A stretch of 64,000 nt of DNA from Chloroflexota bacterium (GTDB lineage: Bacteria > Chloroflexota > Anaerolineae > Anaerolineales > Anaerolineaceae). Below are positions 3,014-10,073 of the stretch, in pieces (positions within the stretch are counted from its first letter, which is position 1; each line of letters starts with the position of its first letter). The DNA is taken from positions 2,170,001 to 2,234,000 of the forward strand of contig CP069394.1 in NCBI GenBank assembly GCA_016887485.1, in the 5' to 3' direction. The notes beneath the pieces were generated by a model, which ran no database searches, was not told the DNA's origin, and saw only the letters and a list, made by a program, of their open reading frames with translations. Position numbers and translations under genes: made by a program.

Positions 3014-3307
3014 GGCTTACCTCCTTAATTTATTTGGTATTGCCTTAAATAGTAATCTGGATTGAGTCAAGCGTGTTTTCTTGAAGTGAATCCAGGGGGA
3101 AGTTGGAGACCCAGACAACTTCAAACGATACGGAGGCCTTTACAGGCCTTTTCATTTTCTTTTCCAGGGTCTGAACTGATTCTACCAAATTTTATCCGAA
3201 AGGGTACTACCTGGAGGGCTTTATAATAGAATGTTAATAAAATCGGTGAGTAGGTGAATTGGGGATTGTATATAACGTGCCGCACAGCGCACGTGACTTT
3301 TTATTTT

Positions 3308-3360
3308 GTAGGGTGCGCTCCGCGGTTGAGCGCACCAAATGGCTCAATATTCCAGCTTCC
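3308..3360. repeat. GTAGGGTGCGCTC hairpin repeat, copy 1
   Basis: A 53-bp unit that starts GTAGG and folds through GGTGCGCTC / GAGCGCACC. It is repeated at 3469-3522 with a single extra A. The same stem recurs at 7688, 8446, 20777 and 49855. Confidence 0.8.
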
Positions 3361-3468
3361 CGTTGGGGCGGGTCTGCCTGCCTCCTGTGGGAGTTGTGCC
3401 CGCCCTTTTTTGGAGAGGTATCTCCACCTCATCAGTCTGCTCCGCAGACAGCTTCCCCTCAAGGATAT

Positions 3469-3522
3469 GTAGGGTGCGCTCCGCGGTTGAGCGCACCAAA
3501 TGGCTCAATAATTCCAGCTTCC
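3469..3522. repeat. GTAGGGTGCGCTC hairpin repeat, copy 2
   Basis: Direct repeat of the unit at 3308-3360, identical except for one inserted A. The extension past the hairpin (about 24 bp) is shared only by these two copies, which suggests local duplication. Confidence 0.8.
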
Positions 3523-3523
3523 A

Positions 3524-3598
3524 GTAGGGTGGGTCGCCGACCCACCAAAACGCAGATTAAAAGTCACGTGCGCGGCAAAGCCGCGGCACATGACCTAC
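3524..3598. repeat. Two adjacent hairpin repeats (GTAGGGTGGGTCG and GTCACGTGCGC types)
   Basis: At 3524-3546 a GTAGG-bounded stem pairs GGTGGGTCG with CGACCCACC. At 3563-3598 a second stem begins GTCACGTGCGC and ends in TGACCTAC. Both share the GTAGG/CCTAC edge with other intergenic hairpins in this window. Confidence 0.65.
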
Positions 3599-4579: not shown

Positions 4580-4636
4580 GGGCGGGTCTCCGAGCCCGCC
4601 AATTAAAAATGGGCGACCACAGAGGGTCGCCCCTAC
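4580..4636. repeat. Paired short hairpins (GGGCGGGTCT and GGGCGACC types)
   Basis: Two inverted repeats lie side by side: GGGCGGG / CCCGCC at 4580-4600 and GGGCGACC / GGTCGCCC ending in CCCTAC at 4611-4636. The CCTAC edge matches the other intergenic hairpins. Confidence 0.55.
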
Positions 4637-4666
4637 ATGTTTGTATAGTTAGGCGGGTTAACCCCG

Positions 4667-4695
4667 TTGACAGTGCCCCCGGATTCCTTTAGACT
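4667..4695 (+). promoter_or_regulatory. Predicted sigma-70 promoter for the carrier and GH51-like operon
   Basis: A perfect TTGACA (4667-4672), a 17-base spacer and TAGACT (4690-4695, four of six consensus bases) lie about 50 bases upstream of the carrier start. The predicted start of transcription is near 4702. Confidence 0.55.
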
Positions 4696-4744
4696 TTAAC
4701 CAGTTTGGGTTTATCACTCACCTCCCTTGAAAGGAATGACCATC

Positions 4745-6070
4745 ATGGAAAATCGCGCCACCCCTGCTGCGCCAAAGAAACGCCTCTCACGTCCTCTTTG
4801 GATCGCCCTGCTCATGCTGGGCTTTGCCGGCCAATTGGCCTGGGCCGTGGAAAATCAGTTTTTCAACACCTTTCTCTATAACGAGATTACACCCGACCCA
4901 CGCCCAATCAGCTGGATGGTGGCAATCACAGCATTGGTTGCCACGGTGACGGCGATCCTGATGGGCGCGCTCAGTGACCGGATGCGGACCCGCTGGGGAC
5001 GGCGCAAACCCTTCCTCGTGATTGGTTATATCGCCTGGGGGATCATTACGGCTCTGTTCCCCTCCTCGGCTAATTTCAGCACGGTTTCCGCTGGGGTGTT
5101 CATGGCTATTTTGCTCGATTCCCTGATGACCTTCTTCGGGTCCAGCGCCAATGATGCGGCCTTCAATGCCTATGTTGCCGATGTGACCACGGTGGAAAAC
5201 CGCGGCAAGGTGACCGGTGCGTTGGAAATAATGAAATGGGTCGCCATCCTGATTGTTTACGGCGGTGCAGGGATCGTGATTGACCTGGTGGGATACCCGG
5301 TGTTCTTCTATTTCATCGGTGGGATGGTGCTGTTGGTTGGGCTGGTCTGCGCGCCGTTGATCAAAGAGGAACTGCCCGAGGAAAAACCGCAAGGTTCCTA
5401 TTGGCAACACATCGTCAGCACTTTCAAGGTCAAGAACCTGCGCGAGAACCGGGACTTCTTCCTGGTGATGGCTGCGGTGGCCTTGTTTGGGCTGGGACAG
5501 AATGTCTTCTTCCCCTACTTGCTGGTTTATTTAGAGCATTATGTCCATTTGGAAGCTCTCCAATATTCAATCCTGGTGGGTGGTGCGATTCTGATAGGTG
5601 GGATTGGTGCGGCCTATCCCCTGGGCATTTTGGTGGATAAATGGGGGCGCTACCCGGTTGCCGTGCTGGCTGTGATTTTGGAGGCGGTTGGTTTGGTAGC
5701 CTTTTCGCTGACCAATAACTTCATCCTGCTGATGGTCACGGGCATTATGTGGCTGGCGCCGATGGCCGCCTGGACGATTGCCGCGCTGACCTGGAGCAAG
5801 GACCTTTTCCCCGCCGAAAGTCGGGGACTTTATGCCGGGTATTATGTGCTATTCATGGTGGCGCTGGCAATGATCCCTGGACCATTAATCGGTGGGTGGC
5901 TGGGATCAAGTTTTGGTTTGCCGATCATGCTGAATGGGCAATCGGGCTTTGTCCCCACATCCCTGATCTTCCAGGTGGCAGCGGGAATCACCCTGCTGGC
6001 ACTGATCCCGCTCTTACTCACCAAACGTAAACCAGTTCAAAATGGTAAACAAGCGGAGCAAGCGGAATGA
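4745..6070 (+). CDS. MFS sugar-type transporter (SLC45/GPH-like)
   Basis: A 441-residue inner-membrane carrier with about twelve hydrophobic segments. The loop after helix 2 has GALSDRMRTRWGRRKPFL, a cation-symporter version of the MFS GxLxDRxGRR signature that is typical of glycoside/disaccharide carriers. The frame is open from a TTG at 4727, but GAAAGGA sits 9 bases before the ATG at 4745, which I take as the start. Its stop overlaps the next start by 4 bases (ATGA), so it is translationally coupled to a GH51-like protein. That suggests uptake of an arabinose- or xylose-containing oligosaccharide, but the substrate is inferred from context only. Confidence 0.87.
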   Translation: MENRATPAAPKKRLSRPLWIALLMLGFAGQLAWAVENQFFNTFLYNEITPDPRPISWMVAITALVATVTAILMGALSDRMRTRWGRRKPFLVIGYIAWGIITALFPSSANFSTVSAGVFMAILLDSLMTFFGSSANDAAFNAYVADVTTVENRGKVTGALEIMKWVAILIVYGGAGIVIDLVGYPVFFYFIGGMVLLVGLVCAPLIKEELPEEKPQGSYWQHIVSTFKVKNLRENRDFFLVMAAVALFGLGQNVFFPYLLVYLEHYVHLEALQYSILVGGAILIGGIGAAYPLGILVDKWGRYPVAVLAVILEAVGLVAFSLTNNFILLMVTGIMWLAPMAAWTIAALTWSKDLFPAESRGLYAGYYVLFMVALAMIPGPLIGGWLGSSFGLPIMLNGQSGFVPTSLIFQVAAGITLLALIPLLLTKRKPVQNGKQAEQAE

Positions 6071-7500
6071 CGCCAGAACGTGCAATAAACCCAGAGGGCA
6101 GCGAGAAAGTCCAAAGGGTGAATCGCTATCCCAAAGGCAATTTGTTCAAACGCTTATTCCAGATTGAACTGCGGGCTGAAGCCGTGGTCAACCTGGATGA
6201 TGTGGTCGGTGAGATTGATCCCCGGATCTTCAGCCAATTTATTGAGGATATGGATACTTGTGGCCGGGCTGGGCGTGAACAAGGTGGGGATGTTGCTGAA
6301 TTATTTCAGGCGCTTCAGCCAGCTATCATTCGATTCAAGGTTGGTGCGTTTGACAGCGATTCAGCTCAGGCGGAACTAAAAGCCTTTTTGTTTTATTGTG
6401 AGCGGGTTGGCGCCGCGCCATACCTGAGCCTGGACCCTGCCGCCATGACCGAGGACGAGGCTGCCAAATGGGTGAATGCCCTTGAGCCTCGTAAGGACCT
6501 GCTTTGGGGGTTGGCTGCGGGACAGCAAGACACTTCCAGTGCTGCAGCGTATGTTGAGGCGATTAAACCTTTTATTGCGGCAATGCGGGCTGCTGATCCT
6601 GAGATCCAGCTTGCAGTGGCCGGGCTGGCAATCTTGCCTGGTGACCCTGAGGACGCGGAAGCTTGGAACCGGACTGTGCTGACAGCTCTTGGCGACCAGG
6701 TGGATTATCTCGCTTTCAGCCTTTATCAGCCGGATGAAGTCGGGAGAGAAGAGGTTCTCAACGCTGAGCAGCGGCATCACAGTATGCTTTCCGCGCCGCA
6801 TAGTGCGGAAGAGGTGATCCAGCGGTTGGGGGCGCTTGTTCAGGAATTGGCCCCGGAACGGGAAATTGGATTGGTGTTGGACGGGTTCAACGTCATGCCG
6901 CCCACTGGTGACCTTCATCCAGCCGCCACCTTGCAGGATGGCCTCTATATCGCCGGGATGTTGAACGTGTTTCAGCGGCAGTGTGAAGTGCTGAAGGTGG
7001 CCTGCCTTGCGCAGGGAGCGGGTCAACTGCCGTTGATCGTGAAGCCCGAAGGAAAAGCTGCTTTTGCAACCCCGCTGTATTTCCCCTATCAGCTCTACCG
7101 TAAGATGGAATCTCAACTGCTCACATTGGCCTATTGGTCGCCTGTGTTCCAGGCGCAAGCCCTGGGGGGGAATATCAGCGAGCGTAATCAGGTGCCCTTT
7201 ATTGACATTACCGCCACGCGTTCACCGGAGGGCCAGCGGGTGGTTTTAGGAATCACGAACCGGAGCCCATTGCGGAAGGCGAAGGTGATGGTTAACCTCA
7301 AAGGGGAAGGGAATCGAAAATTCCGGGTGGCGGAGGCCCGGTTGATGCGAGGGCTGGATGTCCTGGCGGCTAATACAGTTGATGCACCGGAGCAGGTGTC
7401 TGCCCGACCGACCCGAGCACCCAAGCTGCGGTTTGCCTGGCTGGACATAGATTTACCGCCCGCCTCGTTGATGGTGGTGGTGTTGGAGAAGAAGGGATAA
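6067..7500 (+). CDS. GH51 alpha-L-arabinofuranosidase-like protein lacking both catalytic glutamates
   Basis: This 477-residue protein keeps the GH51 layout. The N end has VVGEIDPRIFSQFIEDM (about 47-62), the barrel follows with FYCERVGAAPYLSL (109-122) and LYIAGMLNVFQRQ, and the C-terminal beta domain has FIDITATRSPEGQ and ITNRSPLRKAKVMVNL. The usual GLGNEMDG acid/base motif reads WGLAAGQQD (147-155), so the Glu is replaced by Gly152. The usual DEWN nucleophile motif reads LDGFNV (271-276), so that Glu is Gly273. The SLHYY histidine is also lost. It has no signal peptide. It overlaps the upstream sugar carrier by 4 bases. I infer a non-catalytic, perhaps sugar-binding or regulatory, derivative. 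A wholly different activity cannot be excluded. Confidence 0.75.
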   Translation: MTPERAINPEGSEKVQRVNRYPKGNLFKRLFQIELRAEAVVNLDDVVGEIDPRIFSQFIEDMDTCGRAGREQGGDVAELFQALQPAIIRFKVGAFDSDSAQAELKAFLFYCERVGAAPYLSLDPAAMTEDEAAKWVNALEPRKDLLWGLAAGQQDTSSAAAYVEAIKPFIAAMRAADPEIQLAVAGLAILPGDPEDAEAWNRTVLTALGDQVDYLAFSLYQPDEVGREEVLNAEQRHHSMLSAPHSAEEVIQRLGALVQELAPEREIGLVLDGFNVMPPTGDLHPAATLQDGLYIAGMLNVFQRQCEVLKVACLAQGAGQLPLIVKPEGKAAFATPLYFPYQLYRKMESQLLTLAYWSPVFQAQALGGNISERNQVPFIDITATRSPEGQRVVLGITNRSPLRKAKVMVNLKGEGNRKFRVAEARLMRGLDVLAANTVDAPEQVSARPTRAPKLRFAWLDIDLPPASLMVVVLEKKG

Positions 7501-7880
7501 AAAGGCGTCACGCTGGAAGCGTGACCTACAAATTTCAAGAATTATATACATCGGGGCGGCTCTCTCTGGCCGCCCTTCATTTTTGTCACTTGCCGTCCAG
7601 CGCACATGACCTACAGGAGTTGGACCAAAACTGTTCTTGGCTCCCTTCTCCTTCATTGATGGGAAGGGCCGGGGATGGGGTGGAAATGGTGCGCTCAATG
7701 GCGGAGCGCACCCTACGTTCTTATGAAGGTCACGTATGGTGGCCACAACCACATAAGTGGCATATTCAGTAACTTGGGAAGAAATACGCTCCATTTGACC
7801 CATCATTACACTTATTCATTTTAGGGAGGGTGAAAAGGTTATTTTAACCGGTAAAATGACCTGATATCTCCATTATCTTG
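7501..7880. other. Intergenic region with hairpin repeats
   Basis: No gene is supported here. It holds a GTCACGC / GCGTGAC hairpin ending in CCTAC at 7507-7529 and the first copy of a 74-bp repeat at 7643-7716. From about 7800 the sequence turns AT-rich and leads into the broken gene at 7881-8276. Confidence 0.6.
7643..7716. repeat. 74-bp direct repeat, left copy
   Basis: Two hairpins in tandem: a CCCTTCTCC / GGGAAGGG stem, then GGTGCGCTC / GGAGCGCACC ending in CCTAC. It matches the copy at 8401-8474 at 71 of 74 positions. The two copies bracket the AT-rich patch with the broken gene. Confidence 0.85.
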
Positions 7881-8276
7881 TCAATTTCCAAGGCGATTAA
7901 CACAAAAAACGACTTGTTTTGTCTCTGGACCATATTTATTTGTGTAAACCGTGACTGAATACTTACCAGACTGAACCTTAATAATGGCGGTATCTGCTGA
8001 GGTGATATTTCCAACAAGAATACCTTTGTTGCCAACCATAATTTCCCCAGACACACATAAAGCATATTCAAGATCATTTTAATTTGTTTTAACAGTCACG
8101 TCAATTAATTGATCGTTTGCTGTCACAACAACAACACCATGCGATCCGAACACAATGGTCTCATCACCGGTTTTCCATTGTGGGTAAGCCTCTTTATTTT
8201 CATTGTCCAATAGTGCCACTTGGAAATATGATGAATTTATTTTTCCATGAAACAGAATTCTGTCATCATCATTCAT
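7881..8276 (-). pseudogene. Small hypothetical gene split by one in-frame TAA
   Basis: The ATG at 8276 has an excellent ribosome binding site (GAGGAG, 6 bases upstream) and opens 65 codons, then TAA at 8079-8081. The same frame stays open for another 65 sense codons to a TGA at 7881. Both halves have the same character: alternating hydrophobic and polar residues typical of beta strands (for example IVFGSHGVVVVTA, then GKYSVTVYTNKYGPETKQVV). I take this as one protein of about 131 residues interrupted by a single nonsense codon. No frameshift is needed. The region is much more AT-rich than its neighbours, which suggests recent acquisition. I do not recognise the family with confidence; it has the size and feel of a small beta-sandwich protein such as the ComJ-like or immunity-protein type. 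Confidence 0.6.
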
Positions 8277-8400
8277 TTCATTCTCCTCATTTTATTATTA
8301 CATTAAATTTATCCCCATCTACTATATTAAATTTACTATAAAATTGCGCTAAAGTCCCCCTGAATCCACTGTTCTTTAATTGGTACTATCTGTACAAATG

Positions 8401-8474
8401 CCCTTCCCCTTCATTGAGGGGAAGGGCCGGGGATGGGGTGGAAATGGTGCGCTCAATGGTGGAGCGCACCCTAC
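8401..8474. repeat. 74-bp direct repeat, right copy
   Basis: Same orientation as the copy at 7643-7716, with three substitutions. It carries the CCCTTCCCC / GGGGAAGGG and GGTGCGCTC / GGAGCGCACC stems. Confidence 0.85.
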
Positions 8475-8550
8475 TTAATGGCGCATTGTGTGAAATGTGG
8501 TTCATATTGTCACGTGCGCTTCGCGGCTCGTAACCTACTTAATCAAAAAA

Positions 8551-8572
8551 GAGACGCCCAATTGGGCGTCTC
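8551..8572 (-). terminator. Rho-independent terminator of the MFS gene
   Basis: A perfect 11-bp inverted repeat, GAGACGCCCAA / TTGGGCGTCTC, is followed on the minus strand by a run of six T residues. It lies 25 bases past the stop of the MFS gene at 8598. Confidence 0.85.
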
Positions 8573-8597
8573 TTTGCTATTGGATGATTATCGGCAT

Positions 8598-10073
8598 TTA
8601 TTCCGGTTCCACGCTGGCAGCGCCAACAGGAGGCTCCCCAGTTCCCTTGGGCTGGTCCTTGACACCGAACAGCGCCAGGGTGGAAATCAGGAAGAGCAGG
8701 CCGAAGATCCCCATCAGTACGGTAAATCCCACGCCGTCGCCAATCGGGCCGCCGATATAAGCGCCTATAGCGCCCGCACCCGCTCCGGCCAGGTTTTGAA
8801 TACCGAGGTAACGTCCGGCTTCATTCTTGGGTACCATCGAAGTGCCCAGTGCCCAGCTGGCGGAATAAAAGATGCCGATGGCGACACCGACCATCAAGCC
8901 ACCGATGTAGAGCATGGTCATGCTGACCGAGGCAATTACCACGACTGTCCCAACAGTGGCGATGACGCCGCTGAGTGCGCAAAGCAGTTTTCGTCCAAAT
9001 TTATCCGTCAACCAGCCGGCGGGGATGCTGGAGATCAGAATCGCGATTCCCACAAACATGACCAATTTGGCTGTTGGGCCGGCAGCGGAAGCTCCTTGCA
9101 GTTCGGGGAAGCGTTCCTGTAGGAAGTAAAGCACAAATGAAGCCAGGTTGGTGGAGCCGACCAGGAAGGCCAGGCGGTTGATCACCCACCAGGTGAAGGA
9201 TTTCTTATCCGTAGTGCTCTTTTCACCACCACCCAGGCTGATGCGAACGCTGGTCCAGACGCCCAGGATGACGGCAATCGCCATACCCACCACGCCCATC
9301 GCAGCGGTGACGATCAGAGCCGTTGTGTCCGGCAGATCAACCGCCAGGCCGTTGACGAACTGCACCAGTTCACCCGATCCGAGGATGATGATGGTGAACA
9401 CCGCGGTCATTGCCACCAGACGCAGGATGGGTTTCCAATCCATCTTCTCAGGCGGCTGTTTAATTGGCTTTTCGGGCACCAGCATCGTGATCAGGGTGCA
9501 GGCGAGTACGACACCGCTCAATACCAGCAAGGCTCCCCAAATATTGCCGGCTTCAACCATCTTGGTGATGACAAAGGAGACAAAGATCAAAGGTGCAGGG
9601 AGTTCAAAGAAGGCTTTAATTCCGGAGAAGATCCCGTGTTTGCTTTCGGGGATCAGGTCGGGGATCAGGCCTTGGGCCGCCGCGTGACCCGTGTTGGAGG
9701 AGAGCATCGAGAGGATATAGGTCCCAAACAGGACCCAATAGCCTGTTGGCCCTTCCAGGGTGGCGGCGATCACGCCGATTCCAAGGAAGACCAGCACTTC
9801 GGTCACGCCGCCAATCAGAATGAAAGGCCGCCTTCGGCCCATCCGGGAGGTGCTGCGGTCCGAAAGGATGCCGATCAGGCCCTGCATAAGTACAGCAATC
9901 ATCAAGGCCCATAAGCGCAAATTACCATAAGCCGCGCCCTTAACCTCATCACCCATAAAAGCCTGCACCAGCAATGGCAGAATCAGGGGCGTGAGGGTTT
10001 GTGACCGGGCGGTCAGTGCGAAGTAGAAGATGTTGACGGTTATATAGTCGTACCAGCGGATCTTACGTTCCAT
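8598..10073 (-). CDS. MFS transporter
   Basis: A 491-residue membrane protein with about twelve hydrophobic segments. The first inter-helix loop carries GILSDRSTSRMGRRRPFIL, again the expanded DRxxxxxGRRRP form found in sugar-cation symporters and SLC45-like carriers. The second half has the matching GWLTDKFGRKLL motif between helices 8 and 9. The ATG is preceded by GGAGG 9 bases upstream. It is monocistronic, ends in its own terminator, and has a TATAAT-like box on the minus strand at 10115-10120. It resembles the carrier at 4745 in style but is clearly a separate paralogue. The substrate is unknown. Confidence 0.87.
   Translation of the reverse strand: MERKIRWYDYITVNIFYFALTARSQTLTPLILPLLVQAFMGDEVKGAAYGNLRLWALMIAVLMQGLIGILSDRSTSRMGRRRPFILIGGVTEVLVFLGIGVIAATLEGPTGYWVLFGTYILSMLSSNTGHAAAQGLIPDLIPESKHGIFSGIKAFFELPAPLIFVSFVITKMVEAGNIWGALLVLSGVVLACTLITMLVPEKPIKQPPEKMDWKPILRLVAMTAVFTIIILGSGELVQFVNGLAVDLPDTTALIVTAAMGVVGMAIAVILGVWTSVRISLGGGEKSTTDKKSFTWWVINRLAFLVGSTNLASFVLYFLQERFPELQGASAAGPTAKLVMFVGIAILISSIPAGWLTDKFGRKLLCALSGVIATVGTVVVIASVSMTMLYIGGLMVGVAIGIFYSASWALGTSMVPKNEAGRYLGIQNLAGAGAGAIGAYIGGPIGDGVGFTVLMGIFGLLFLISTLALFGVKDQPKGTGEPPVGAASVEPE

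Follow-up and report, generated by a model that had tools for sequence, protein, structure and literature searches.

A GH51-derived protein without its catalytic glutamates, encoded in overlap with a carrier gene in Brevefilum

Introduction

GH51 arabinofuranosidases carry a catalytic pair of glutamates, the acid/base residue of a GNE motif and the nucleophile of a DE(W/Y)N motif. The bacterial enzymes often form hexamers. In the T. xylanilyticus enzyme the nucleophile is Glu298 (PMC4686458, PMC7604909), and arabinose is contacted by Glu28, Asn175, Tyr242, Gln347 and the backbone of Cys74 (PMC7604909). Exchanging the nucleophile glutamate of a fungal GH51 for glycine lowered activity in culture broth tenfold and left negligible hydrolysis of pNP-arabinofuranoside, which formate restored (PMC4686458).

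Comparable glycosidase-like proteins have been described in several settings. Clade II GH51s of grasses and other monocots have their acid/base glutamate replaced and are called potentially inactive (PMC9964162). The pseudoglycosidases YKL-39 (GH18) and klotho are non-catalytic glycosidase descendants that bind sugars or proteins (PMC7828330), while 4F2hc and rBAT are amylase-family-like subunits of vertebrate amino-acid transporters, with which a complex has been demonstrated (PMC8537225). Within the part of the open-access literature surveyed, we found no case of a bacterial GH51 pseudoenzyme.

Here we analyse a window of 64,000 nucleotides, the whole stretch of DNA under study, from a Chloroflexota genome of the genus Brevefilum (Anaerolineaceae; contig CP069394.1). 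A preliminary description of the window had pointed to a GH51-like protein that has lost its catalytic residues and whose gene is translationally coupled to a sugar carrier, and had proposed a pseudoenzyme with a binding or transport-linked role.

Results

A GH51 descendant with an open frame and a predicted GH51 fold

The open reading frame (Table 1) starts with ATG and spans 477 codons with no internal stop or frame shift. Its product matches the Pfam domain Alpha-L-AF_C, the GH51 C-terminal domain (2e-17), and a HMMER comparison with solved structures returned 16 distinct sequences with E-values no higher than 1, each of which bears the name arabinofuranosidase or arabinosidase. Against the NCBIfam ArfA model it scores 106 bits where 625 are required, far under the cut-off. 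A structure model built from the window protein and 31 relatives (pLDDT 88.6, pTM 0.90) contains a closed barrel, with eight strands on our reading of its secondary structure, and its best fold matches are GH51 arabinofuranosidases (VIA-align Z of 39.4 to 3ug3, RMSD 2.2 Å over 412 residues). The prediction thus retains a (beta/alpha)8 barrel, followed by the beta domain at the C-terminus. Because the relatives steer the model towards GH51, its evidence is limited to fit: the model shows that the sequence suits the GH51 fold, rather than proving that the protein folds. Domain content and tree placement mark the window protein as a GH51 descendant and, together with the predicted fold, bear out the earlier view that the overall GH51 pattern is kept.

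Table 1. Features of the window and members of the second GH51-derived family
Feature	Position	Strand	Basis
Sigma-70-like promoter TTGACA-17-TAGACT, candidate operon promoter	4667..4695	+	Consensus match only
MFS carrier MFS1, GPH-like	4727..6070	+	Pfam MFS_1 2.2e-43, MFS_2 2.7e-16
GH51-derived pseudoenzyme, 477 aa	6067..7500	+	Pfam, HMMER alignment, predicted fold
ATGA, 4 nt shared by the carrier gene (stop) and the pseudoenzyme gene (start), with GGAG 9-12 nt before ATG	6067..6070	+	Sequence
Approximate junction of missing N-terminal domain, in frame	6076..6081	+	Alignment with intact relatives
Arg89, kept; subsequent YPGG of relatives is FKVG here	6331..6333	+	Alignments
Approximate junction of deleted substrate loop (YHWEDGIGP...AW in relatives)	6355..6360	+	Alignments
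AAG (residues 150-152), in or next to the position of acid/base motif GNE	6514..6522	+	Sequence, alignments
Ser218, where relatives have the active-site His	6718..6720	+	Alignments, conserved columns
DGFN, residues 272-275; Gly273 at the nucleophile Glu place	6880..6891	+	Alignments, conserved columns
Terminator-like hairpin behind pseudoenzyme	7553..7576	+	Consensus match only
Second MFS carrier MFS2	8598..10073	-	Pfam, locus comparison
g17 family member	L053:6614-8395	+	
g17 family member	L054:2432-4252	-	
g17 family member	L055:6833-8611	-	
g17 family member	L057:6996-8750	-	
g17 family member	L059:5070-6758	+	
Further g17 family members (G031, G080, G090)			

Loss of the catalytic pair and of the active-site face

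In an alignment of the window protein with seven intact relatives, a gap stands opposite their GNEVW, next to AAG; an ungapped reading (WGLAAG against WGLGNE) puts AAG in place of GNE. On either alignment the acid/base glutamate is absent. At the other site, Gly273 falls on position 298 of T. xylanilyticus chain 6zt6 (HMMER alignment, counted by hand), the place of the nucleophile. Neither glutamate of the catalytic pair is present, and the window protein is almost certainly a catalytically dead GH51 descendant, a lack of activity that we infer from its residues. The preliminary description had read AAG for GNE, DGFN for DEWN and the loss of the active-site histidine, and each of these readings recurs in our alignments, its span of 271-276 for DGFN being right within one residue. 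It had also named glutamates shifted by a local insertion as the finding that would speak against it. We reject such a displacement: short stretches around both sites, read in all three forward frames, show neither GNE nor DE(W/Y)N.

The losses extend to features that the preliminary description had not noticed. An N-terminal domain of about 115 aa, present in six of the seven intact relatives, is missing, as are about 25 aa of the loop YPGGNxASxYHWExGIGP, together with IYGGI(W/F) and about 18 aa ahead of the fourth barrel strand. Since aligned sequence lies between all gaps, each deletion is in frame. Sixty-eight alignment columns are conserved in 90% or more of 31 intact relatives; of these the window protein keeps 29, substitutes 22 and deletes 17, whereas each of the relatives keeps 56-68. 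The losses are denser on the active-site face, where 4 of 27 columns remain, than elsewhere, where 25 of 41 do (Fisher 0.00017 under the strictest definition; p 0.007, 0.014, 0.003 and 0.044 under four wider ones), the split into face and elsewhere being our own and drawn from the strands of the predicted model.

An assembly or sequencing error that mimics active-site loss is a very improbable source of this pattern. The listed completeness of 95.5% and contamination of 4.6% leave some room for error in the genome, but the frame is unshifted, the missing motifs are unseen in the other frames of the stretches read, and the losses are scattered over many sites that aligned sequence keeps apart.

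Three of the five arabinose contacts of the T. xylanilyticus enzyme have counterparts in the window protein: Glu28 corresponds to Glu60 and Gln347 to Gln316, both placed by count along the HMMER alignment, and Tyr242 to Tyr220, placed by conserved column and its spacing from the histidine. Asn175, Glu176, Glu298 and the loop around position 74 have no counterpart, so the set of contacts is incomplete. The remaining pocket, with Glu60, Tyr220, Gln316 and Arg89 present but the loop and the Asn-Glu pair gone, may bind sugar. These polar residues and the predicted fold would also suit a barrel that has acquired a different catalytic activity through other residues such as Glu60 or Asp272. We consider that improbable: the substrate loop and most conserved face residues are gone, and ordinary GH51s likewise conserve Glu60 and Asp272, which so give no sign of a new site.

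The operon plan is shared with intact GH51 loci

The pseudoenzyme gene overlaps the carrier gene MFS1, whose product is 56-62% identical to carriers adjoining GH51 genes in other genera. The promoter and terminator candidates of Table 1 belong to sets of 10 promoter-like sites against 3.5 expected on both strands of 4600-8600 and 7 terminator-like hairpins against 4.8 expected in the region. Five loci of the family (L042, L047, L050, L051 and L052) have a related carrier next to an intact GH51 gene, at distances from a 1 nt overlap to a 7 nt gap; in a sixth, L046, a GH31 gene stands between the two. The coupling of carrier and GH51 is therefore older than the catalytic loss and inherited from intact operons. 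Because intact operons share the arrangement, it does not speak for a role in transport, and we discard it as an argument for a new role or against decay.

The neighbouring carrier MFS2 is 82% identical to a gene lying tail-to-tail with the intact GH51 at the corresponding place of the sister genome. Four homologues of MFS1 occur in the genus (43-45% identical), none with a GH51 match beside it in the surrounding sequence covered. Two of the four adjoin a GH127 gene, in one case with GH2 beside GH127; for the other two the sequence ends with the contig about 0.8-0.9 kb past the carrier on one side. GH127 beside these distant Brevefilum carriers makes arabinose-containing sugars a fair guess for the carrier substrate.

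Short G+C-rich repeats with the core TGGTGCGCTCAATGGCGGAGCGCACCCTAC lie on either side of the operon, at 3307-3535, 7643-7716 and 8401-8474, and face in opposite directions. A query of 161 bases found 21 places in the genome including itself, 20 of them over the core; a REP-like element or the remnant of a mobile element is a candidate identity.

The loss is placed within Brevefilum

Among the 16 Brevefilum genomes searched, eight of them more than 90% complete, a GH51 domain scores over the cut-off in two, the window genome and that of Brevefilum sp. CSSed162cmA_390 (G002), and the dead form was found in the former only. A weak domain hit in a third genome (G003) lies in a reading frame with ParA/AAA matches and was taken as chance. 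The intact gene of CSSed162cmA_390 (L041/L090) is the sister of the window gene with a support of 100/100, on a branch of 0.32 against 0.77 for the window protein.

The preliminary description had asked whether homologues share the losses, and they do not. Of 87 named-genome relatives caught by two peptide patterns, the best 80, which overlap with the family-level genomes, comprise 78 with Glu, Glu and His and two fragments. In the family, 46 of 147 genomes have a GH51 match. The class-level search added 14 further loci, all 14 with Glu, Glu and His; it drew on 396 genomes, and the order-level search on 400, from larger groups in which many drafts are incomplete. A genome-contig search with the window protein alone and a viral-contig search with the alignment returned no relative. 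Since the sister and the other relatives are intact, the loss, seen in the window genome only, is placed as a recent event within the genus Brevefilum.

A search of the window genome found no second GH51, which leads us to reject a heteromer with an active paralogue of the same genome, and GH43 was likewise not found. The genome holds two GH127-like genes, for which reason the lost arabinofuranosidase activity may have become needless.

Three further observations concern the intact GH51s. L044:7415-9019 (-) and the partial L048:6926-8410 (+) have intact motifs yet lack the N-terminal domain of their close relative L045, so this domain seems dispensable. In L041:2669-4600 the N-terminal domain (residues 12-119) matches Pfam PF25653, named after HMG-CoA reductase, at E 1.4e-11. 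In G435 (L073), G139 (L021) and G193 (L080), intact-motif GH51s contain one stop inside the match; these are draft assemblies, and the stop is either an error or a real break.

Constraint on the window branch and the case for decay

In a codon model of five relatives of our choice, joined as a polytomy, the branch-specific omega of the window gene is 0.051 and omega = 1 is rejected (2dlnL 26.9), while a difference from the sister branch is unsupported (0.26). As dS is saturated (5.7 on the window branch, 187 in the window-sister pair), omega is rough. It shows constraint over much of the window branch rather than today; it is silent on present-day constraint because of that saturation and because the branch includes time before the loss. 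In simulations, 15 stop mutations arise on the window branch if all replacements are neutral. The probability of no stop is 0.22 when 10% of the branch dN is neutral and 0.02 at 25%, and no run stayed open at 50% (0 of 300) or when all of it is neutral (0 of 150).

These results bear on the main rival reading, in which the gene is in decay: its activity was no longer needed, selection slackened, and the frame has so far survived by luck or for want of time. We regard this as a serious possibility, though an unlikely one. It would account for the dead form being found in one genome only, for the long branch, for the several deletions with loss of the N-terminal domain, and for the presence of two GH127-like genes. 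The dN between the window gene and its sister is 0.46, against 0.10 for the neighbouring MFS2 pair. Codon adaptation is 0.559, the lowest of six genes, although the other five (0.62-0.71) are themselves the reference set and hence flattered; the two wrong frames give 0.457 and 0.478. The open frame would also be unremarkable under recent relaxation if only a tenth of replacements are neutral. Set against decay are 477 codons without a stop, gaps that keep the frame, the rejection of omega = 1 on the branch, albeit with saturated dS, and a complete predicted fold. The preliminary description had excluded a decayed pseudogene on the grounds that the gene is intact and coupled to the carrier; the first ground stands in the open frame and predicted fold, but the second falls, since the coupling predates the loss.

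A second GH51-derived family without the catalytic pair

At least eight genomes of the genus g17 (G031, G079, G080, G081, G082, G086, G090 and G091) encode GH51-descended proteins without the glutamate pair, the PGGN loop or the histidine at its place, G091 having a histidine one residue further on. The proteins are about 560-610 aa long where whole (G080 and G090 have interrupted copies in their drafts) and share a conserved C-terminal motif, MDHVxLDI. In four scanned members the Pfam GH51 domain is below the cut-off or has no match; compared by hhalign with a GH51 profile, built from 31 intact members together with the window protein, the family reaches 99.9%. For two pairs omega is 0.19 and 0.16 (dS 1.1 and 1.3) and omega = 1 is rejected (2dlnL 173 and 172); an intact GH51 pair gives 0.11. 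The family shows that in Anaerolineaceae selection can preserve a GH51 barrel that has no catalytic residues, independently of the window case. An elongation factor P gene lies near the members in L053, L055 and L057 but not L059, and no MFS1 homologue stands beside the family in the loci read. G566 and G696, considered as similar members outside the genus, have intact motifs where covered and are not counted.

The missing glutamate pair, histidine and PGGN loop could suggest one old loss common to this family and the window protein. The tree makes that highly unlikely: it joins the window protein to the intact Brevefilum gene (100/100), while six of the eight g17 members stand apart in a clade of their own (100/100), and we reject a shared loss.

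Discussion

What is established by observation is the descent of the gene, the loss of residues, the open frame and the gene overlap. We propose that the ancestor was a GH51 arabinofuranosidase of the carrier-plus-hydrolase type whose catalytic site was lost within Brevefilum. In-frame deletions took the N-terminal domain and barrel loops, and both glutamates and the histidine went, with the predicted barrel and C-terminal beta domain staying. The product, made alongside the carrier, would fold but have no catalytic role; its likeliest function is that of a binding or regulatory partner.

On balance, we infer that the window protein is probably maintained for a non-catalytic function. Pointing this way are the open frame, the rejection of omega = 1, the predicted fold, the intact sister with its MFS2 neighbour, the bias of losses to the active-site face and the selected g17 family; pointing the other way are the single genome, long branch, high dN, low codon adaptation, saturated dS and the inherited nature of the coupling. 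As to the partner, our first guess, held with low confidence, is the carrier; the imported sugar, bound through the remaining pocket, and another protein are fainter guesses, one as doubtful as the other. It also counts against maintenance that a search of the genome found no active GH51 for the window protein to regulate. Of the role first proposed, the GH51 pseudoenzyme stands by sequence, while the inherited coupling loses its value as a sign of transport.

An intact enzyme and its dead orthologue in two species of one genus make losses and retentions directly readable. The g17 family shows that the family name alone would wrongly label such GH51 proteins arabinofuranosidases. With the GH51 enzymes of known structure (T. 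maritima 3ug3/3ug4, T. xylanilyticus 2vrq and G. stearothermophilus 1pz3) the window protein shares the predicted fold and several pocket residues, and its operon follows the plan of intact GH51 relatives; unlike them it has lost both glutamates, the histidine, the asparagine before the acid/base residue and the substrate loop. The CSSed162cmA_390 sister is 48% identical and has the same tail-to-tail MFS2 neighbour, but it retains GNEVW, DEYN, the histidine, the PGGN loop and the N-terminal domain, and it neighbours a GH127 gene with no MFS1, whereas the window gene adjoins MFS1. The g17 family resembles the window protein in GH51 descent and in lacking the glutamate pair and PGGN loop; it differs in keeping an N-terminal region, in having no adjacent MFS1 homologue in the loci read and in forming a separate clade.

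Beyond bacteria, 4F2hc and rBAT offer an analogy for a glycosidase-like protein that works with a transporter. They belong to another fold family, are membrane-anchored and act in a complex, whereas what links the window protein to its carrier is a gene overlap; on reading its sequence, the window protein has no long hydrophobic stretch at its N-terminus. Speculatively, GH51 barrels have turned non-catalytic at least twice in Anaerolineaceae, and the window protein might serve the carrier co-translated with it as a gating or stabilising subunit, a bacterial parallel to 4F2hc and rBAT caught soon after its origin with the active form still in a sister species; we hold this larger picture to be doubtful. 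YKL-39 and klotho are animal proteins of other GH families, and the window protein a bacterial GH51 descendant (PMC7828330). The plant Clade II proteins, as described in PMC9964162, show a single Glu-to-Gln exchange with the nucleophile and pocket kept, whereas in the window protein both glutamates, the histidine and the loops are gone. Pseudoglycosidases and potentially inactive plant GH51s were thus already known; what is new here, against the literature surveyed, is the depth of the loss and its setting in a bacterial operon.
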